From a virus: a stretch of DNA of 39,006 nt. Under the pieces are notes generated by a model. The model searched no databases, was not told the DNA's origin, and worked only from the letters and a program-made list of their open reading frames with translations. Shown piece by piece: positions 3,881 to 38,953 of the stretch; within the stretch, counting starts at the first letter, position 1; every line of letters begins with the position of its first letter. Location: the IMG/VR virus record IMGVR_UViG_3300028800_000195, positions 1-39,006 of that record. One strand, 5' to 3'. The position numbers were made by a program, and so were the translations under genes.

Positions 3881-4498
3881 ATGCAAGAAAAAAAGACATG
3901 TACAATTTGTAAGTTGGAAAAACGAATTGAAGAATTTGGTATATGCGGAATTAAGGAACAGCCAAAGGTATATTATCGTAGAATGTGTAGAAAATGTTCT
4001 AACGAGAGGAAACGAGCAGGTAAAGAAAATGCTTGGAAATACCAAAGCGATGAAACTTGGCCTACTGCATGGAAAAAGGGCAATATTCCATGGAATACAG
4101 GAACTGCTAAGCCTAAACCTGTCAAAGATAAAAAAATCAAAATACGGGTTTATATGCATGTCGGTAGGTGGAGTAGTCCAGCAAGAAAATGGCGCCGCGA
4201 TATTATCAAACGAGATGGAATGTGTATGCAGTGTAATAGTTTAGAAATGTTACAAGCACATCATATTGTTTCCTGGAAAGATAATGAATTTCTTAGATTT
4301 GAATTATCCAATGGAATAGCTTTGTGCAAGTCTTGTCATATAAAACTTCATCAACCTCAAAGAATTGGGCAGCCTGGTACTATGACAGGAAAAAAACATT
4401 CACAAGAATCTAGGAAAAGAATGAGTGAATCGGCAAAGGGAAGAATTCCCTGGAATAAAGGTCTTAAGACTGGCCCTAAGAAAAATAAATTAAATTGA
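3881..4498 (+). CDS. HNH homing-type endonuclease with NUMOD3-like tail
   Basis: A 205-residue protein. The N-terminus has a zinc-finger-like pair (CTICKLEKR, CRKCSNER). Residues about 112-155 form a classical HNH nuclease: RDGMCMQC, LQAHHIVSWKDN, LSNGIALCKSCH, with both zinc CxxC pairs and the His-His dyad intact. The C-terminus has a NUMOD3-like DNA-binding motif (GKKHSQESRKRMSES) followed by IPWNKGLK, a motif that also occurs around residue 70 (NIPWNTG). It has its own AAAGGA site and sits between two fibre genes whose reading frames are intact, so it is a free-standing homing gene and not an intron ORF. It probably cuts fibre or intergenic DNA of related phages. Confidence 0.85.
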   Translation: MQEKKTCTICKLEKRIEEFGICGIKEQPKVYYRRMCRKCSNERKRAGKENAWKYQSDETWPTAWKKGNIPWNTGTAKPKPVKDKKIKIRVYMHVGRWSSPARKWRRDIIKRDGMCMQCNSLEMLQAHHIVSWKDNEFLRFELSNGIALCKSCHIKLHQPQRIGQPGTMTGKKHSQESRKRMSESAKGRIPWNKGLKTGPKKNKLN

Positions 4499-15173: not shown

Positions 15174-15648
15174 CGATCATAACAAGCAAACCCGTAGACC
15201 GTCCATCGTCTTAGACTACTATTGTCAAATCGGTAACGAGAAGAAATGGCCCCTTCCTCAAAGCTTCATACAAAAGATATGCGAAGAATTACTCGAGTGG
15301 GCCTTCAAGAACCCCGAAGCCTTCCATATACGAGCCTTCTTTAGAGATCGACGCATAGGCAAGAACACTGTCGCCGCTTGGCGTGCTAAATGGCCCGAGT
15401 TTGCTGATGCTTACCTTGAAGCCAAGGATGCTGTAGGAGAACGTAGAGAATCATGCGCTGCCGGCATTGGACACAAGAAGTTCGATGTAACCGTATGGTC
15501 ACGTACCCAACACAAATACGACAGCGATTCTCATGACCTATGGCGTGATGACCAAGCCTACCTTGCAAAGACTAAGGCAGATAATCAAGATAATGAACGT
15601 ACTATTGTTGTACTTAAAGATTATCCAGATGCGATTGATACCAAATGA
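15151..15648 (+). CDS. terS: Terminase small subunit
   Basis: A 165-residue protein. Residues ~35-105 read like a small-terminase DNA-binding domain: a helix-turn-helix-like FFRDRRIGKNTVAAWRAKWP followed by FADAYLEAKDAVGERRESCA. The C-terminal part (TVWSRTQHKYDSDSHD, then WRDDQAYLAKTKAD) would contact the large subunit. It recognises phage DNA and loads the packaging motor. It overlaps rusA upstream, and its stop overlaps the start of an HNH gene (ATGA), which separates it from terL. No strong RBS is seen; there is probably coupling to rusA translation. Confidence 0.75.
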   Translation: MKKKNESSDHNKQTRRPSIVLDYYCQIGNEKKWPLPQSFIQKICEELLEWAFKNPEAFHIRAFFRDRRIGKNTVAAWRAKWPEFADAYLEAKDAVGERRESCAAGIGHKKFDVTVWSRTQHKYDSDSHDLWRDDQAYLAKTKADNQDNERTIVVLKDYPDAIDTK

Positions 15649-16313
15649 TTGGCGCTAAATTTTGGAAATGGACCGTTCTGGAAATAAGAAAATCTCCAAC
15701 TAAAAAGATGACAGTTTATTTTTGTGAATGTGAGTGCGGTACCAAGAAGGAACATCAGCCAAATCTCCTAAGAGAGGGTGATAGTAAGCAATGTATGGAA
15801 TGCTATAGAACAGAGCCCTCTAAGAAATTAATAGGACAATCATTTGGACAATGGAAAGTTACGTCCTATGAAAGATATCCCGGAGTTGCTATAAAATTGG
15901 TTTGCGAATGCTCTTGTGGGAACATTGGAAAAGTTAAAATTGGCGATCTGAAAAATGGAAAAAGTACTCGATGTATTGATTGCTATAACAAGGCTCGAGT
16001 TGCTCATAATAAAACACACAATTTTTCTGGAACTAATATATTTAGATTGTGGTGTCATATGAGGTATAGATGTTCTAACAAGTCGAATCAAGACTACAAA
16101 TATTATGGTGGTCGTGGTATAACCGTCTGCGAAGATTGGCAGTTATTTGAGAATTTTTATCGTGACATGGGTGATCGACCAAAAGGAATGCAAATAGATA
16201 GAATTGATAATAATAAAGGTTATTCTAAAGACAATTGTAGGTGGGTTACCCCCAAAGAAAATTGCAATAATAGGAGAAGATGTGGCCCAATCCCAAAAAA
16301 TAATAGAACTTAA
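15645..16313 (+). CDS. HNH-type homing endonuclease between terS and terL
   Basis: A 222-residue protein. The N-terminal half has two similar Cys-rich modules (IGAKFWKWTVLEI with CECECG..C..C, and IGQSFGQWKVTSY with CECSCG..C..C), probably DNA-binding zinc ribbons. The C-terminal half carries the YYGGRGITVCEDW, MQIDRIDNNKGYS and NCRWVTPKENCNNR motifs typical of phage HNH endonucleases in which the second motif is D-R. The start overlaps the terS stop by 4 nt and the end overlaps terL by 32 nt. The paralogue at 25465-26100 has the same two-module layout. It is a free-standing homing gene embedded seamlessly in the packaging operon. Confidence 0.82.
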   Translation: MIGAKFWKWTVLEIRKSPTKKMTVYFCECECGTKKEHQPNLLREGDSKQCMECYRTEPSKKLIGQSFGQWKVTSYERYPGVAIKLVCECSCGNIGKVKIGDLKNGKSTRCIDCYNKARVAHNKTHNFSGTNIFRLWCHMRYRCSNKSNQDYKYYGGRGITVCEDWQLFENFYRDMGDRPKGMQIDRIDNNKGYSKDNCRWVTPKENCNNRRRCGPIPKNNRT

Positions 16314-17665
16314 TAAGTTTGTTCCACGTTCATACCAATTGCCATTTATCAATGCGATTGAGAAATATAACTATAAGCGTGTGCTTATCGTAATGCCGAG
16401 GAGATCCCGGCAAGGATCTTGTAGCCTTTAATCTATGCATTCGCGCAGCCTTACGCAAAGTACAAGTAATTTATTATATCTTTCCTACATATGCACAAGG
16501 AAAGAAAGTTATATTCGATTCAATCACGAATGATGGTGTTCGCATACTTGATTACATACCTAAAGAAGTAATACATTCTATCAATTCACAAGAAATGAAG
16601 ATTAGATTCATTAATGGGTCATTGATTCAAGTTGTGGGATCAGATTCTTATGATGGGTTAATGGGAACCAACCCACAGATGTGTATATTTTCAGAGTATG
16701 CATTGCAAGATCCACGAGCATACCAATTCTTAAGACCAATATTATTGGCCAATGCTGGCACCGCAATCTTCATAAGCACACCGCGTGGGCACAATGCATT
16801 CTATGATCTTTATAATATAGCAAAACAGTCTGATGAATGGTTCTGTCAGAAATTAACCGTCGATGATACAAAGCATGTATCCGTAGAAGAAATATATAAA
16901 GATATAGAACGTGGTGAGTATAGTTTTGATTTTGCGCAACAAGAATGGTGGGTTTCGTTCGATCTTGGCGTAGAAGGTGCATTTTATAGCAAGGCATTAG
17001 ACAGATGTCGTCTTAACGGCCAGATTACCAATATTCCCTGGGATGTCGCTCATAAAGTCTATACCAGCTGGGATCTTGGCTATCGAGATTCCACAGCGAT
17101 CATATTTTTTCAACTTATAGGATCCGCGGTACATGTGATCGATTGTTATCAAAATTCCAAAGAAGGGCTCGATCATTATATTAAATATGTCTTGTCCAAG
17201 CCTTATATATATGCTGGTCATATAGCGCCATTTGATATAGGAAATACTGAATTCGGAACCGGAATGACTCGCATTGAACAGGCTTCACAATTAGGAATAG
17301 ACTTCCATATCTGTGATAAGCTTTCGCTTATGGATGGAATTGAAGCAGTTAGAGCGTCATTATCACGGATTTATATCGATAAGACTAAATGCGCACCGTT
17401 AATAACTGCCCTTGAATCGTATCGCCAAGAATACGATAGTAAGCATAAAGTCTATAAGCCGACACCATTACACGATTCATCTTCACACTTTTCAGATAGT
17501 TTTAGATATTTATGCCTATCTCTTCCAAAGATTGGCGAAGGCATGACAGCCAAGGACGCAGAAGATATGTACAATCAGGCCCTTTATAGTAGACAGCCTT
17601 CCACGATTAACTCACCTTACTCCAAACCACCTCCAGGCATCTATGGCAACATTCCCCATAGATAA
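16282..17665 (+). CDS. terL: Terminase large subunit, frameshifted in the Walker A motif
   Basis: The ATPase-nuclease of the packaging motor, about 460 residues in two frames. The first frame starts at GTG 16282 after AGGAG and reads to VLIVMPRRS. The second resumes at GGC (16409) with GKDLVAFNLCIRAA. At 16406-16408 TCCC stands where one codon is expected, so one extra base splits the Walker A motif (PRR-x-GKD). Unshifted translation stops at 16431. Later motifs are intact: CIFSEYAL (Walker B region), FISTPRG (motif C), SWDLGYRDST and FSDSFRY (nuclease acidic residues). The options are sequencing error, recent mutation or +1 frameshifting. The start lies inside the HNH gene. Confidence 0.87.
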
Positions 17666-24678: not shown

Positions 24679-25403
24679 ACGAAGAACTCACACAAGAAGA
24701 ACAGGTAGTAGATCAAAATTCACAAGAGTTGGTTGATCAACTTGAAGCCCCCCAAGAAGCAGCAGTTGAAGAAAAACCAGCCAAAAAAGATACATCGGCA
24801 GAACGCAACTTTAAAGAACTGCGCGAGAAGACAGAGCGGCTCGAACGTGAGCGAAATGACCTGGCTCGGCGCATGGCTGAAATTGAACAGCGTAACAAAC
24901 CAACTATGCCAGAGCCCGAGCCTGAGTTTAACTTTGGCGACGATGATCTTGTCGAAGGCAAAGTCCTCAAAAAGATTGCAAAGAACTTTGAAAAGAAACT
25001 TGCAGACTATCAACGCCAACAACGAGAACTAACCACTGAAACCATGCTCAAAACCAAATACAATGACTTTGATACCGTGGTCAATAATGACACCATAAAC
25101 ACCCTCAAGGAACGATATCCAGAGGTTGCCCAATCACTTGCAGATCAACCTGACCCTTACACTAAGCTATCAGCAGCATACCGACTGATAAAAGATCTGA
25201 ATATCTACGAAGCAAGTACTCCACAGTACGAGGAAGAAAAAGCTACCATGCAACGCAATCTCAAGCAGCCTCGGGCAGCAGGTACCATGTCACCTCAGAC
25301 AGGCACAACCCCACTGTCCCAAGCCAATGACTTTGCTAAACGCTATTCTTCAAACATGGACGAAAAGATTCGTGCTGAGGTTGAAAGCCTTATTAAAAGA
25401 TAG
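24675..25403 (+). CDS. Scaffolding-like protein
   Basis: A 242-residue, very charged protein placed between the portal and the major capsid gene, where tailed phages keep their scaffold. The N-terminus is Glu/Gln-rich; residues ~30-75 form a coiled coil (NFKELREKTERLERERNDLA). A Pro-Glu patch (PTMPEPEPEFNFGDDD) and further helices follow. The C-terminus is helical (FAKRYSSNMDEKIRAEVESL). Scaffolds guide capsid subunits during procapsid formation and leave later. The assignment rests on composition and position. Confidence 0.72.
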   Translation: MNEELTQEEQVVDQNSQELVDQLEAPQEAAVEEKPAKKDTSAERNFKELREKTERLERERNDLARRMAEIEQRNKPTMPEPEPEFNFGDDDLVEGKVLKKIAKNFEKKLADYQRQQRELTTETMLKTKYNDFDTVVNNDTINTLKERYPEVAQSLADQPDPYTKLSAAYRLIKDLNIYEASTPQYEEEKATMQRNLKQPRAAGTMSPQTGTTPLSQANDFAKRYSSNMDEKIRAEVESLIKR

Positions 25404-25431
25404 AAGTCGTTCACTACACTCCTTTTTTTTG

Positions 25432-25466
25432 CAATGCCAGGTGACACTCTTGCCTGGCATTGTTTT
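25432..25466 (+). terminator. Intrinsic terminator after the scaffold gene
   Basis: CAATGCCAGG (25432-25441) pairs perfectly with CCTGGCATTG (25453-25462), followed by TTTTATTT. It separates the scaffold transcript from the antisense HNH gene and the capsid gene, so the capsid gene probably has its own promoter. Confidence 0.8.
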
Positions 25467-26100
25467 ATTTAATCTTATGTTTACGTTTGTTGTTATTGTT
25501 TTCTTTTGATGTCACCCACCTGCAATTAGATGGTTCATAATTACCATATGGATCAATTCTATCTAATTGTAATCCTTCTGGTTTTACTCCCATGTCATCC
25601 AAGAAGTTTTTAAATGTTCCCCATCTTTCACAAACGGTTACACCTTTTGCACCATAGTATTTGTAGTTATGATTTTTTTGATTAGTGCATCGAGCAATCA
25701 TAGTTCTCCATGTATATTTTGTAGGAGTTTTATCCATTCCATGAATAAGATTTAAACAATCCTTACATCCATTAGCCTTTCCTTTGAAAAGTCTAGATCC
25801 CTGAACTGAATGGATTCTTCCACAATCACACTGACATTCAAATAACTTTGATTGACCATCAAAGTTTATTCTTTTACCGACGGTCCATTTCCCTATTTTT
25901 TTACCGATGATTGAGTTTTCTACTATATCAATTTCTTTTTGTCGGCAATTCTTGCATTGTTTCGATCTTTTATTTTTTAATATATCACCACGAATTTGGT
26001 ATATGTCGCCACAATCACACCTGCAATCATAATAAGTTCCATGTTTTCCGTTATAAACTCTCTCTATAACCAACCATTTGCCGATTTTTTCACCAATCAT
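25465..26100 (-). CDS. HNH-type homing endonuclease, antisense, upstream of the capsid gene
   Basis: A 211-residue paralogue of the HNH protein at 15645-16313. It has two N-terminal Cys modules (IGEKIGKWLVIERV with CRCDCG, and IGKKIGKWTVGKRI with CQCDCG), each ending in a C..C pair. They are followed by the nuclease half with YYGAKGVTVCERW, LQLDRIDPYGNYE and NCRWVTSKENNNNKR. It has AGAGG before its ATG and is transcribed against the structural genes. It lies 153 nt upstream of the intron-rich capsid gene, so it may be a free-standing homing gene that targets the capsid region. Confidence 0.82.
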   Translation of the reverse strand: MIGEKIGKWLVIERVYNGKHGTYYDCRCDCGDIYQIRGDILKNKRSKQCKNCRQKEIDIVENSIIGKKIGKWTVGKRINFDGQSKLFECQCDCGRIHSVQGSRLFKGKANGCKDCLNLIHGMDKTPTKYTWRTMIARCTNQKNHNYKYYGAKGVTVCERWGTFKNFLDDMGVKPEGLQLDRIDPYGNYEPSNCRWVTSKENNNNKRKHKIK

Positions 26101-26253
26101 TGCATCAGCCTCTATTTTTTGTTAAACCATTAATAAAGCGTATCGGAGTTCGCTTCTCCACCTATCGCGTATTGTGCTTCGCAAGCACGGGCGTAATTGT
26201 ACAGAGAATCGCCATCTCGAGGAAAATGTTTAATCCTATTTTAAGGATATAAC

Positions 26254-29006
26254 GTGTCAATTACAACTACAAGTAGCCTTTCTAGATAGGTGGGCTCGTA
26301 AAATCTTCCCTGATAGTCTTGAAACTCTGACCGGGTGGCGCCGAAGACAACAAGGAGCAAGCAGGAGAAATCCGTGCAGCTTGAACGCAGTAAGCGGGAA
26401 GAGATCGAAAGATCATGCGGTACTCTGAACTCATAAGAAATTATGAGAGGTAGGCTGAGAAGATCTACCCGCCTCATCTGAGGTTATAAAGTAACAGAAT
26501 GTCCGGCTCCCTTACAGGCGACATTTAATATGCGTCTGTTGCCGTGGAAGCAGCCGAACTTAATCATGAAGCTTGCAGCGGATTATTACCGTATGCCAGC
26601 ATCAGGTGGTACCACGCTAAGATTGCGTAGGTACACCAAACTTGTTCCACCCGTGGTTCCTTTAGGGAATACCGGCGTAACAGGACCAAGCCAAAACCTA
26701 ACAGCTGTGGATAGAGTCTATGTCCACATTAAATCTTTCCTTATGGACTTGGAGTTCCTAATGCGTAATGGCATGGATAACAAGGCGCAAGCAACCATAT
26801 GGTGTGCAGCGTGAACGAACAAGCGGAAAGAAGTTGAAAGACTATGCGATGTTCTAGACTTTGCAGTAATGCAGAGAGACGTGCAGAAATGACCGTCCGC
26901 CCAGTAGCAGGGTTAAGAAGTAATAGAATGATAGATGCTCAAATGAGCTTTTATGCTACGCACGTGGATAGAGTGATGTCCACGCTAAACCATGGGTAAT
27001 TGACTTGAAGTTCCTAATGCGTAATGGCAAGGATAACAAGGGCCAAGCAGCGAAAGCGTGCAGGTCGAGAGACTAAACCCTGTGGCCTCATAAAAGAGGA
27101 TGCGATAGTACCGAGCTCTATGGAAACATAGAGAGGCAACAGAAATGATTGCCCGCCCCTAAGGGTCATAAAGTAACAGAACGATCAACGAGCAGGTCAC
27201 GCTTCAGGCACAGGATAGGCCATTGAACGAGGCTGTAAAATTACTCGGTCAAGCAATGAGAGAGGCGGAAGATCAATTAACAAGAGACGTTCTTGTAGCG
27301 ACTGCCGGCTTTATAAATTGCGTAAACGGAGTCAACGGTAAAGATGTTGCCGTTGTAAAATCTTTGATAATTGACTTGAAACCCGAAGTGGCTTTTAGCT
27401 AACCGGCAACAAGGGCCAAGCAGGAGAAATCCGTGCAGGCTGACAGACTAAATTCAGAGACCTCGAAAGAGGATGCGATAGTCGAGTCTCATGGGATAAC
27501 CATGAGAGGTAGCAGAAATGACTACCCGCTTACGGTTTTATTACCTTTAAGGTTTAAAGAATGAATTTTAGCAACAATATCTTCTCTAGTTTTAAGGACC
27601 TCGGCATAGTGAGATCTAAAAATCTCTGTGTGTCTAGCTCCACCATTAGTAAGAGTTGTTGCATAGAATTTAATAAGCTCTTCACAGACCGGTTTCTTAT
27701 GTCTAAGAAACGGATGTATTTTGTGCAGTATTTTGGAAAGAGCTCTACCGCTCAATCTCCAAGCAAGTTGATTTCTTCTTCTAAGATTTCTTCGGTCTAT
27801 AAAGTTTGTATGACCACCAAATCTTTCAAGAAGCCATTTAAAAACTGGTGCTTTAGAATTATTAACCAACAAACTAATTTTGTAGGTGTAATTTGGTTTT
27901 TCCCTAGGTTTATATTTATTAACATTAAGACAGCATTCGGCGTCTATAAATCCAGAAAGATAAGCAAAATCATTTTCAGAAGGATTAATTGTGTTTCTAA
28001 AAATTTGAAACTCACTTTTGTGATGCTTAGAAACAAGATTGGCGGTATCTTTAAGAGACCTCATTTGATTAATCATGATTTCTTTTTCATGAACATCATT
28101 TGTTTGAGCAAATTTCAAGGCAAGAGCACATTCATCTCTTTTTTCAACAAGAAATGGCATGATATTTTTACAAATCAAAACGCTATCATTTTTTCTTGTA
28201 ATAAATTGATAAAGAGATTTGTTGTTATCATGCGCAGCTTTAACGAGCCTTACACTACCACCAAAAACTTCTTTAAATCTATCAAGTGTATGTTTATTAA
28301 CAGAAGAAATAACTATGCTTACTACATATCTTTGTCGCATGCGTTTTTTGGAGGAATATTTTCCTATATAAAAACATCCATCGCCATCAAGATATCCAGC
28401 AAAATAAGCATATTCACTTGGTTCAATTCTTTTTTCCATACACCAAATATATCAAAAAAAGACCGTAAGTCCACAAGTAATAGTTTTTCGGACAGCCCTA
28501 CAGAAATAACGCTCCCTGATGTCAATACGACTGTTCAGGCCCTTTTGGGTAATGATGCGTATACCATTATGGATGTTGTTGAAGCTCAAGATAAATTTGG
28601 GACAAGTCCTACTCGTCCTTCTTATCTTGTGTATGCGCATACTAATATGTTCTCATCATTGCAAAATGTTGACACATTCATTAGTACCAATAACTATCCA
28701 TCTCAGGCTAACGTAAATAGTTCTGAAGTTGGAGCAGTATCTAATGGTAGATTCTTTATTTCATCTAAAGGATCAGTGATACCTAACGCTTCGGCTAATG
28801 GTAATGACGTGTATAACAACATCTTTGTTGGTCTGCACTCTTACGGATGTATTGAGCAGGATCAGTATAGTGCTCAGTTCATCTATCGACCACCTATATT
28901 TAGTGGTCCTGAAGCCTTGAACTCAACTGCTGCTGTTAAATTCGCAGAAGTGTCCCGCGTACTTTATGACGCATGGATCGTTCTGCTACGCGCTACTATA
29001 GCGTAA
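26254..29006 (+). CDS. Major capsid protein (N4gp56 type), five exons split by four group I introns
   Basis: Exons 26254-26279, 26502-26712, 26931-26969, 27184-27339 and 28491-29006 total 948 nt: 315 residues plus TAA, in one frame. GTG start after AAGGA. Spliced, the protein shows the N4gp56 capsid pattern: MSITTTSSL/PAPLQATFN, ASGGTTLRLRRYTKL, NLTAVD/IDAQMSFYATHVD/INEQVT, DQLTRDVLVATAGFINCVNG, VNG/DSPTEITLPDV, YSAQFIYRPPIFSGP and DAWIVLLRATIA. It forms the HK97-fold shell. Every intron lies in a conserved stretch. Without splicing, translation stops at the TAG at 26287, so splicing is needed for a capsid. Exon 3 has only 13 codons. Boundaries are inferred from P1 pairing, the terminal intron G and frame; they have not been tested. 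Confidence 0.92.
26280..26501 (+). ncRNA. Group I intron 1 of the capsid gene (222 nt, no ORF)
   Basis: P1: exon AGCCU (26275-26279) pairs with GGGCU (26292-26296), leaving the splice-site U.G pair. The last intron base is G26501. P7: AGUA (26389-26392) with UACU (26421-26424). P8 is a GATC-GAAA-GATC hairpin at 26403-26414. The P9 hairpin is CCTCATCTGAGG near 26472. It shares GCAGGAGAAATCCGTGCAG with intron 4. Splicing joins CT to T, giving Leu-Pro-Ala as expected for the family. Confidence 0.85.
26713..26930 (+). ncRNA. Group I intron 2 of the capsid gene (218 nt, no ORF)
   Basis: P1: exon UGUGGAU (26706-26712) pairs with GUCCACA over seven pairs, ending in the U.G pair at the splice site. 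The last intron base is G26930. P7: GAACA (26817-26821) with UGUUC (26850-26854), a compensating change relative to the GACUA/UAGUC of intron 4. It shares 20 identical bases (26754-26773) with intron 3. Splicing restores VD/ID between codons. Confidence 0.88.
26970..27183 (+). ncRNA. Group I intron 3 of the capsid gene (214 nt, no ORF)
   Basis: P1: exon CGUGGAU (26963-26969) with GUCCACG, seven pairs ending in U.G. The last intron base is G27183. P7: GACUA (27071-27075) with UAGU (27106-27109). P8 is CCTC-ATAAAA-GAGG, and P9 a short CCCTAAGGG hairpin. The target GTGGAT/AT is the same as for intron 2, 39 exon bases upstream. Splicing restores HVD/INEQ. Confidence 0.88.
27340..28490 (+). mobile_element. 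Group I intron 4 of the capsid gene (1151 nt) with an antisense LAGLIDADG gene
   Basis: P1: exon AACGGU (27334-27339) with GCCGUU, ending in U.G. P7: GACUA (27446-27450) with UAGUC (27479-27483). P8: CCTC-GAAA-GAGG. P9: CTTACGGT (27529-27536) with ACCGTAAG (28462-28469); the endonuclease gene fills the P9 loop, reading on the opposite strand. The last intron base is G28490. Splicing restores VNG/DSPTEIT. The combined ribozyme and endonuclease make this a potentially mobile intron. Confidence 0.9.
27522..28439 (-). CDS. LAGLIDADG homing endonuclease inside capsid intron 4, antisense
   Basis: A 305-residue protein with two LAGLIDADG motifs: YFAGYLDGDGCF (~12-23) and YLSGFIDAECCL (~160-171), so it can act as a monomer. 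The first motif has the catalytic Asp; the second ends in DAE, with the acidic residue kept as Asp or Glu. Between and after lie the usual beta-rich DNA-binding halves. Such enzymes cut the intronless allele and so copy the intron into it. The gene occupies the P9 loop, reads against the host gene, and its last codons overlap the P9 5' strand. No clear ribosome site is seen; a TATATT box lies just upstream. Confidence 0.9.
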   Translation of the reverse strand: MEKRIEPSEYAYFAGYLDGDGCFYIGKYSSKKRMRQRYVVSIVISSVNKHTLDRFKEVFGGSVRLVKAAHDNNKSLYQFITRKNDSVLICKNIMPFLVEKRDECALALKFAQTNDVHEKEIMINQMRSLKDTANLVSKHHKSEFQIFRNTINPSENDFAYLSGFIDAECCLNVNKYKPREKPNYTYKISLLVNNSKAPVFKWLLERFGGHTNFIDRRNLRRRNQLAWRLSGRALSKILHKIHPFLRHKKPVCEELIKFYATTLTNGGARHTEIFRSHYAEVLKTREDIVAKIHSLNLKGNKTVSG

Positions 29007-29019
29007 GAAAGGATAGACA

Positions 29020-30033
29020 ATGGCAGACATGACACAAACCCAATCACAAGGGTATTTCACAAGTAATGGTAAATCTACAACGATCAAGCTTGCTTCAGGT
29101 GTTGATTGGTTGCAGATTTGGAATATTACTCAATCAGCGGCATCTCAAACTACTGCCGTACCAGTTGGATGGTATTGGCAGAGTGGGTTCCCTGCTGGTG
29201 CTGGTATTTCTTATTGGAAGTCTAACGCAGCTGCTGCGGCAAACCTTCAGCAATACAATACCACTAATGGATTCACACTCATTAACGGGTATGGTCCTCA
29301 GTACAGCACTCCTTCAGCGATAACATCGAGCTCTAATGCTGCGACTCCTGTTTATACAGTTGCCAGCACGACTGGTATATCTGTTGGAAGCGTTGTGCGT
29401 ATTTATGGTACTAACCAGATGAGTGTTAATGGATATGATGTCCAAGTTGGTGCGTTTACGCCTAGTACAAGTTTCACCTCAGCGGTGGCATTTGCTAGTG
29501 CGCTTCCTGCTTCAACAGGTGGATTCTATTCGATTGTTAATCCACTATCGCCGTGGTATCCAGCACGACGTCTTGTTGTTAACATATCACAGGCTGCTCA
29601 AGCGGTTGTTACAACTTCAGTTCAACATAACTATGTTGTAGGACAAGAAGTAACGTTCCGTGTTAATAAGTCTTTTGGTATGGTTCAAATTGATCAGTTG
29701 GTTGGATCGATTGTAGCTGTAAGTCAGTTTACGTTTACAGTTAACATCGATACTACTGCATTCACAGCGTTTGCATGGCCAAGTTTCACTAAAGCTGTAA
29801 CATTGCCTCAGGTATTGCCTGTTGGTGAAGATACTGCTGTGGCACTTGTTCAATCGCCACCGTTGTATGAATTCAGCGATGCGACATTAAATACTGCATA
29901 TATTGGTATTCAGTTCCCTGGTGGAGCATCAGCTGCTGCCGCAGGACCTGCTGGTATTAATAATGACGTAATCTATTGGCGCGCAGGTGTTTCATTCCAG
30001 AATGATTCAACTGGCAGTTTGATTATTCAGTAG
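29020..30033 (+). CDS. Virion structural protein with FCCH-like beta domain
   Basis: A 337-residue protein right after the capsid gene, with AAAGGA before its ATG. Composition (Gly, Ala, Ser, Thr, Val, aromatic) is that of a beta-rich capsid or tail protein. Residues ~185-250 carry a module (VVTTSVQHNYVVGQEVTF, then NIDTTAFTAFAWP) also present in the 30710 protein and, more distantly, in the 32835 protein. Phage annotations often call this module FCCH-domain-like. Residues ~300-337 (GGASAAAAGPAGINNDVIYW) may be a tail. A head decoration or vertex role is likely from position. Confidence 0.72.
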   Translation: MADMTQTQSQGYFTSNGKSTTIKLASGVDWLQIWNITQSAASQTTAVPVGWYWQSGFPAGAGISYWKSNAAAAANLQQYNTTNGFTLINGYGPQYSTPSAITSSSNAATPVYTVASTTGISVGSVVRIYGTNQMSVNGYDVQVGAFTPSTSFTSAVAFASALPASTGGFYSIVNPLSPWYPARRLVVNISQAAQAVVTTSVQHNYVVGQEVTFRVNKSFGMVQIDQLVGSIVAVSQFTFTVNIDTTAFTAFAWPSFTKAVTLPQVLPVGEDTAVALVQSPPLYEFSDATLNTAYIGIQFPGGASAAAAGPAGINNDVIYWRAGVSFQNDSTGSLIIQ

Positions 30034-37834: not shown

Positions 37835-38953
37835 TTAATTTTCAAGTTTTACGTGTTTCCAAGTTTCTCCACGTTTTATTTTATTGATGGCACTCTTGCT
37901 TATATTATATAGTCCCATCAACTCTATGGTTGATAATCCCGACTTAGCAAGTTTTTTTATCTCTATAACTTTTTCATCTGTTAATTTAGCAAATGGAAGC
38001 TCTTTGCCACCTTTATGCAATTGCTTCATATTTTTAATTATTGAATCTATATCGGGATTAGAAACGCTTTTCCAACTTTTCTTATTCTTGATTGATCCAA
38101 CAGTTGATCGATTTATGTCAAATTTTTTAGCTATTTCTTTGTGTTTAATACCCATATAAAGTAATTGTTTTATTTCTACAATCTGTTGCGCAGTTAATTT
38201 GTGAAGATAATGACTTTCTCCTTTTATATTTCTACCTTTAGCAACCATATCGGCAACATTATCATCGTTAGTACCGATCCATAAATGTTTGGGGTTCGAA
38301 CAAATTCTATTATCGCCGCCAGGACAATTGTGTAATACATGCATACCATCAGGTATTTCTCCGATGTGAATAATATAACTTGCTCTATGAGCACCAAGTT
38401 CTTTATCTTTATAGGATATCCCACCATATCCTTTTCTTGTCCATCCCTTCCAAGACCAACATTTGTTATCTCCTTGTTTAATAACTTTTTTTGCATAGCG
38501 TTTTTTAAGTGATTCAAACGCTTGTTGATCTGTTTCTTTTAACAATCCACCGCACTTCTGAGAGCATCTAGTACTATTACGTGATATGGTTGATGCGAAC
38601 TCAATACCACATTTTTTACAATTAATAGTAATGTGAGCGGGATAAGAAAGTTCTTTGCACTTTAATGAGCAATAATTTTTCTTCTTTTTAAGAATCTTAA
38701 ATTCGGTGCCACATTGTAAACATTTATTCTTAGGGGAAATATCTTGTTTGTGAGAAAAATAACAAGCTTGTGAACAATATTTACCAAGAGTCTTACTCTT
38801 TTTTTTAAAACAAATTCCACAGTTCAAACAAATATGTGCGGCAACTTTAAATAAATTATCAGCACATTGAGCAGAACAAAATTTCCTTTTTGTTGCCAAT
38901 GGATGGCTAAATTTATTTAAGCACTTTAAGCAAATTGTTTCTGTAGTTTTCAT
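37835..38953 (-). CDS. HNH endonuclease with zinc-ribbon tandem and two helix-turn-helix repeats
   Basis: A 372-residue, three-part protein. Residues ~1-140 hold at least four Cys modules of the CxxC...YCSxxC type (CLKCLNKF..FCSAQC, CLNCGICF..YCSQAC, CLQCGTEF..YCSLKC, CKKCGIEF..RCSQKC). Residues ~155-245 are an HNH nuclease: GAHRASYIIHIGEIPDGMHV, LHNCPGGDNRICSNPKHLWI. Residues ~250-372 hold two similar helix-turn-helix repeats (KLTAQQIVEIKQLL..IAKKF, KLTDEKVIEIKKLAKSGLS), each ending in SWKSV or TWKHV. It is a free-standing homing-type enzyme with unusually elaborate DNA-binding parts, downstream of the RHH gene across the circle junction. Confidence 0.85.
   Translation of the reverse strand: MKTTETICLKCLNKFSHPLATKRKFCSAQCADNLFKVAAHICLNCGICFKKKSKTLGKYCSQACYFSHKQDISPKNKCLQCGTEFKILKKKKNYCSLKCKELSYPAHITINCKKCGIEFASTISRNSTRCSQKCGGLLKETDQQAFESLKKRYAKKVIKQGDNKCWSWKGWTRKGYGGISYKDKELGAHRASYIIHIGEIPDGMHVLHNCPGGDNRICSNPKHLWIGTNDDNVADMVAKGRNIKGESHYLHKLTAQQIVEIKQLLYMGIKHKEIAKKFDINRSTVGSIKNKKSWKSVSNPDIDSIIKNMKQLHKGGKELPFAKLTDEKVIEIKKLAKSGLSTIELMGLYNISKSAINKIKRGETWKHVKLEN

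Follow-up and report, generated by a model that had tools for sequence, protein, structure and literature searches.

The locus analysed here raises the question of how a phage could make its major capsid protein from a gene whose reading frame is broken by four insertions. The window, i.e. the whole stretch of 39,006 nucleotides that was analysed, carries at positions 26254-29006 what had been read, from its letters alone, as an N4gp56 capsid gene interrupted by four group I introns. This sequence-only reading is supported: the N4-gp56 capsid gene carries four group I introns, as established by exact intron boundaries, a covarying fold with compensating changes, a covariance model, a full-length capsid family match (TIGR04387) and homologues with and without introns. 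That the introns are spliced out in the cell is inferred, as no RNA reads were available.

Exons, reading frame and identity of the capsid gene

The boundaries were obtained with a spliced aligner, using a profile of nine intact relatives from which the window was excluded. Introns of any phase were permitted, and the only splice rule was a U as the last base of an exon and a G as the last base of an intron. The aligner yielded exactly 26280-26501, 26713-26930, 26970-27183 and 27340-28490 as introns 1 to 4 (222, 218, 214 and 1151 nt, respectively, all on the plus strand), which sit after nt 26, 237, 276 and 432 of the coding sequence (CDS). The five exons, also on the plus strand, are exon 1 (26254-26279, with a GTG start), exon 2 (26502-26712), exon 3 (26931-26969), which consists of 39 nt or 13 codons and is in frame, exon 4 (27184-27339) and exon 5 with the stop codon (28491-29006). 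All of them rest on the joined frame and on the leave-out profile, together with the TIGR04387 match for exon 1 and the gap-free alignment for exons 2 to 5.

Without splicing, all three frames of the capsid region are interrupted. Once joined, the five exons give 316 codons including the stop, i.e. 315 residues, with no internal stop. The spliced product was aligned to the nine intact relatives, a check that had been proposed along with the intron claim, and it fills 315 columns without internal gap, at 47-57% identity; the junctions are therefore fixed at the protein level, independently of the U/G splice rule. Relatives with uninterrupted capsid genes are indeed present in the viral contig collection. 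Concerning its identity, the product matches TIGR04387, the N4-gp56 equivalog, with 120.3 bits (cut-off 60; model positions 1-320 of 324), and phrog_1357 (major head protein) at 2e-24. PF25209 remains below its cut-off on the window product (24.2 vs. 27), and three intact relatives are above it. Pfam Phage_capsid_3 gave no match on the unspliced record, which is uninformative. Both the single 315-codon frame and the N4gp56 identity, as first proposed, were thus borne out.

An ORF of 481 codons (27561-29006, plus strand) extends along the sense strand of intron 4 into exon 5 without change of frame, so that automatic gene prediction would join translated intron sequence to the C-terminus of the capsid protein.

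Fold, ribozyme family and probable origin of the four introns

In all four window introns, P1 is closed by a U.G pair (5, 7, 7 and 7 bp for introns 1 to 4) and the final base is a G. P1 consists of AGCCU/GGGCU in intron 1, UGUGGAU/GUCCACA in intron 2, CGUGGAU/GUCCACG in intron 3 and CAACGGU/GCCGUUG in intron 4, while introns 2, 3 and 4 have a P10 of 6, 4 and 4 bp (AUAGAU/GUCUAU, AUCA/UGAU and GACA/UGUU, respectively). No clear P10 was seen in intron 1; P10 is not universal in group I introns. P3 and P7 were located at 26304-26310/26396-26402 and 26387-26392/26421-26425 in intron 1, and at 26734-26740/26825-26831 and 26817-26821/26850-26854 in intron 2; the core of intron 4 spans 27354-27529. 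The earlier statements that every 5' splice site lies in a U.G-closed P1, that every intron ends in G and that three introns measure only 214-222 nt all held, the last one by virtue of the exact boundaries from the leave-out profile.

The fold was assessed on an alignment of ten introns (the four of the window and six from relatives), on which the group I structure was drawn by hand, with P7 crossing P3. In the P3-P9 helices, 98.6% of the cells hold standard pairs, vs. 73.5% (shuffled) and 41-49% (slid), and compensating changes occur in 24 of the 35 pairs. The covariation score is 0.711 against 0.207, and none of 500 shuffles reached 0.711. P3, P4, P6 and P7 are paired in 100% of the cells, with compensating changes in six of seven P3 pairs, three of four P6 pairs and three of five P7 pairs. 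The P7 changes noticed by eye (AGUA/UACU, GAACA/UGUUC and GACUA/UAGUC) are real, since all P7 cells of the ten introns are paired. A clade covariance model, built from introns of twelve relatives and containing no window sequence, matched introns 1 to 4 with 129.7, 117.2, 109.6 and 113.5 bits, respectively (E about 8.7e-31 to 8e-26), and gave no further significant site on either strand of the 39 kb window.

Rfam gave no group I match at the gathering score on the window, at E up to 5 over 25400-29100, or at the gathering score on ten relatives with dozens of these introns, whereas RF00028 matches four control genomes with the same tool. RF00028 also failed on archaeal introns of group I that Nawrocki and colleagues had identified by means of subtype models (PMC6125680). 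In view of the controls and of this precedent, the miss is a limit of the model and not a refutation. RF00028 was the check first proposed for these introns; taken as the deciding criterion, it would have led to the intron claim being wrongly refuted, and the clade-specific model is passed. About five bases separate the guide from P3, and three separate P7 from P3'; with such short spacers, P2 and P7.1/P7.2 seem to be absent. Having no recognisable P2 or P7.1/P7.2, the window introns could not be assigned to any known subtype, and a comparison with isolated phages gave no match to them. Four compact ribozymes, invisible to the standard Rfam model, lie within a phage gene that ranks among the most highly expressed. 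With a group I family that Rfam does not see, many phage introns have probably been missed and their host genes annotated as broken.

Four insertions in a single essential gene, no longer recognised as introns by RF00028, could also be the remnants of once-active introns in a dead, decaying copy of the capsid gene. Yet all exons are open and in frame once joined, conserved residues are kept, the N4-gp56 match is full length, and P3, P4, P6 and P7 are still paired in all four cores, which makes such a decayed copy very improbable. Frame-breaking insertions in a phage gene likewise recall programmed bypassing as in T4 gene 60, in which the ribosome would bridge the insertions without any splicing. 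In each full insertion, however, about 175 nt make up a covarying group I core, and we can give this explanation hardly any credit. According to the self-splicing that we prefer, each intron would fold its own ribozyme and leave the transcript through two transesterifications: an exogenous G would attack behind the U of P1; in the second step, the terminal G would take the P7 site and the exons would be ligated. Introns 1 to 3 would be reduced to the bare ribozyme.

The additional 0.9 kb or so of intron 4 corresponds to a LAGLIDADG homing endonuclease gene on the opposite strand (27522-28439, minus strand, 305 aa, two motifs; PF00961, E 2.4e-14), which was absent from the sequence-only reading. 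The product has two LAGLIDADG-type domains, matched by PF00961 in two stretches; cleavage activity is only inferred. The site-432 introns of relatives L196, L237, L315, L317 and L323 carry antisense LAGLIDADG homologues that are 46-61% identical, and the DNA of intron 4 shares 70-73% identity with the same-site introns of L196, L237, L315 and L317. We infer that this endonuclease probably drives homing into the intron-less capsid genes of co-infecting relatives. Being antisense, it would need its own promoter or antisense transcription. As for the relatives in general, the LAGLIDADG genes of introns at site 36/38 read in the sense direction, while those at sites 290/312/314/350/432 are antisense with few exceptions.

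Same-site introns exist in relatives at nt 26, 237 (13 distinct introns) and 432; the nearest relatives of intron 1 lie at other sites (nt 36 and 312) in other phages. The first 85 bases of intron 3 (the 5' half) share 79% identity with intron 2; over its full length, intron 3 is best matched in relatives by introns at site 237, i.e. at the intron 2 site. Introns 2 and 3 both cut after GUGGAU, a motif present at site 276 in none of 211 relatives. The simplest reading of these comparisons, which remains an inference, is that intron 3 probably arose through a second insertion of a site-237 intron (such as intron 2), 39 nt downstream. Since introns 2 and 3 have guides for one and the same target, exon 3 (39 nt) could conceivably be skipped without loss of the frame.

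Elsewhere in the window, endonuclease-like ORFs were found outside the introns at 3881-4498 (plus strand, Pfam HNH and NUMOD3), 15645-16313 (plus strand, no Pfam match, by eye similar to the following one), 25465-26100 (minus strand, matching PHROG HNH families) and 37835-38953 (minus strand, sub-threshold HNH_3). At 16395-16425, a single additional base breaks the large terminase frame at Walker A (RRS is followed by GKDLVAFNL in frame +1), reflecting either an assembly error or a programmed frameshift. A fifth intron at this break, near 16400, was rejected, since a single extra base leaves no room for it.

Intron sites and short insertions in related capsid genes

A search with the 3' end of the introns GGTYAYAAAAGTAACAGA, naming no gene, retrieved at least 120 viral loci; among the matches listed, a capsid gene of the N4-gp56 family was present in 90 of the 119 fetched loci examined. 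Applying the aligner to all fetched loci provided 179 distinct complete capsid genes, a sample biased by the fetching of the loci. Within this sample, 107 genes have introns: one in 48 genes, two in 35, three in 14, four in seven and five in three, the other 72 having none. The recurring sites are nt 26, 36/38, 81, 93, 157, 237, 290, 312/314, 350, 354, 372, 432 and 543, among others, and the capsid gene is a hot spot for such introns. The four introns of the window gene had been called exceptional. This stands against the published cases found, with at most three introns per phage gene (PMC11878797), but not within the phage group itself, where ten of the 179 genes carry four or five. Away from sites 264 and 354, the aligner reported short "introns" for some relatives that are distant or truncated (L134, L163, L171, L179, L201, L214, L326 and others); these were discarded as alignment artefacts.

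The window comes from a metagenomic contig, for which a chimeric assembly or a sequencing error could be invoked; the sites, the intron family and the endonuclease nevertheless recur in many independent contigs of other samples, and the chance of such an artefact is negligible. The versions found in the relatives (intact, with one intron, with five introns) form a dated series in which intron gain, loss and jumping become directly testable. Five relatives from the genome collection lie in MAGs, three of the five being Parachlamydiales; the MAGs holding capsid relatives L322, L323 and L325 belong to the Simkaniaceae and Parachlamydiaceae. This is a weak hint that phages of this group may infect environmental chlamydiae.

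At CDS nt 264, a single codon, relatives carry 86 distinct frame-breaking insertions of 28-62 nt (e.g. L016 2789-2824, L024 4267-4303, L300 and L235), hereafter mini-elements, which are not found in the window. They were detected first without any pattern, and later with patterns fixing P1 and parts of P10. Their length leaves no space for a catalytic core: the ends work as those of group I introns do, but the elements are non-autonomous. In L300, the mini-element measures 28 nt and full introns of 199 nt lie at nt 290 and 312; in L235, it measures 35 nt and an intron of 225 nt lies at nt 314. They come after UACGGU, have a G as last base and contain a guide, GUGCCGUA, that pairs with the 5' exon (P1); in L204, both strands of this P1 are changed (UUCGG/CCGAA). 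P10 involves the third base of the 3' exon, which is the wobble position of a Thr codon and was not constrained by the search patterns. In 85 of the 86 mini-elements, this base complements the guide, all four pair types being represented (C-G 53, G-C 12, U-A 12 and A-U 8).

The tail of the mini-elements pairs with the downstream coding sequence, some 8 nt ahead of the next full intron, forming a second helix (the tether). For the site-290 class, taken in a single fixed register, 89.8% of the cells are paired vs. 65.4% after shuffling (maximum of 500 shuffles: 70.1%) and 22-46% when slid. The partner of the tether tracks the next full intron, lying at about nt 274-282 for an intron at 290, 294-303 for 312, 296-307 for 314 and 332-342 for 350; at the local position, the site-314 and site-350 classes show no comparable helix. 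In 69 of 79 cases, the tether ends 6-9 nt upstream of the splice site of this intron, against 19% for shuffled tails. A full-size intron is found downstream (nt 279-360) for each of the 81 mini-elements with complete downstream sequence, the fetched sequence of the remaining five ending before this region, and the clade covariance model detects group I cores in nearly all mini-element loci.

Bypassing fares no better for these small insertions: the take-off codon is GGT in 86 of 86, but GGN precedes the resumed frame in none of them, and the lack of a matched landing codon makes a ribosomal bypass unlikely. Removal by splicing would instead rely on the neighbouring ribozyme, which in many relatives appears to serve adjacent core-less mini-introns as well. 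The guide of the mini-intron itself, through P1 and P10, would align the flanking exons, and its tether would stack beside the P1 of the following intron; the core of the latter would then bind the mini P1 and terminal G, excise the mini-intron and afterwards remove itself. The pairings with their covariation, the co-occurrence with an intron and the geometry are observed, whereas catalysis by the neighbouring ribozyme and the order of events are inferred in the absence of RNA data.

At CDS nt 354, where other relatives have full introns, L196, L237 and L123 (identical in L216) show frame-breaking insertions of 4-5 nt (UUCG, UAUG and UAAUG), which are preceded by U and have G as last base. Each of the three genes has a full-size intron at nt 432; directly upstream of this intron, the coding sequence contains GGCGGAGUU, a potential pairing partner of CUCCGU in the 5' exon. 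CUCCGU and GCGGAG occur together in one of 173 other distinct genes, and a P10-like pairing fits two of the three micro-insertions. Their removal seems to be guided by the coding sequence ahead of the nt 432 intron, but with three cases this is a lead only.

On the whole, we consider it likely, without being assured of it, that the relatives hold natural non-autonomous group I introns, namely core-less mini-introns excised by the ribozyme of the next intron and micro-insertions cut out at nt 354. The mini-introns would then parasitise what is itself a parasite, and their excision would be trans-excision-splicing as it occurs in nature. As for the complete explanation, which combines self-splicing of the four introns, endonuclease homing, the duplication giving intron 3 and the service to mini-introns, we hold it with strong confidence, the boundaries, the covarying fold and the homologues being shown and these four components inferred.

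Comparison with known systems

In LittleE, a Cluster J mycobacteriophage, splicing of the capsid intron was demonstrated by cDNA and protein sequencing (PMC3706429). As in the window, a group I-like intron lies in the major capsid gene and the endonuclease gene is oppositely oriented; LittleE differs by its single intron (four in the window), its HK97-type capsid (N4-gp56) and its HNH enzyme (LAGLIDADG).

Several group I introns per phage gene are also known from Twort, with three introns in one gene and exon skipping (Landthaler and Shub 1999, cited in PMC11878797), and from the polymerase and terminase genes of Bastillevirinae, with up to three each (PMC11878797). These cases nevertheless involve at most three introns and non-capsid genes, the word "capsid" not occurring in PMC11878797. 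The Bastillevirinae introns, detected there with RF00028 and with models from GISSD, have a mean length of 802 nt, vs. 214-222 nt for window introns 1 to 3, whose family is missed by RF00028. Four introns are thus beyond the published phage cases found, yet ordinary in their own phage group.

The mini-elements share with the T4 gene 60 bypass a short, non-coding and frame-breaking phage insertion of similar length, but they lack matched take-off and landing codons and show a P1/P10 guide and a dependence on the neighbouring intron. Trans-excision-splicing (TES) ribozymes and spliceozymes are engineered group I ribozymes that excise an internal segment from another RNA (PMC6155759; PMC4094466). 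No report of a natural trans-excision-splicing case was found in the literature searched, which covered few subscription journals. In both the engineered systems and the mini-elements, a group I core would act on a core-less segment with a 5' U and a 3' G. The former are engineered and act in trans, whereas the mini-elements are natural, bring a P1/P10 guide of their own and are connected through a helix with the exon beside the serving intron. If real, the mini-introns would represent a natural group I ribozyme serving several introns, i.e. a proposed step from self-splicing to trans splicing.
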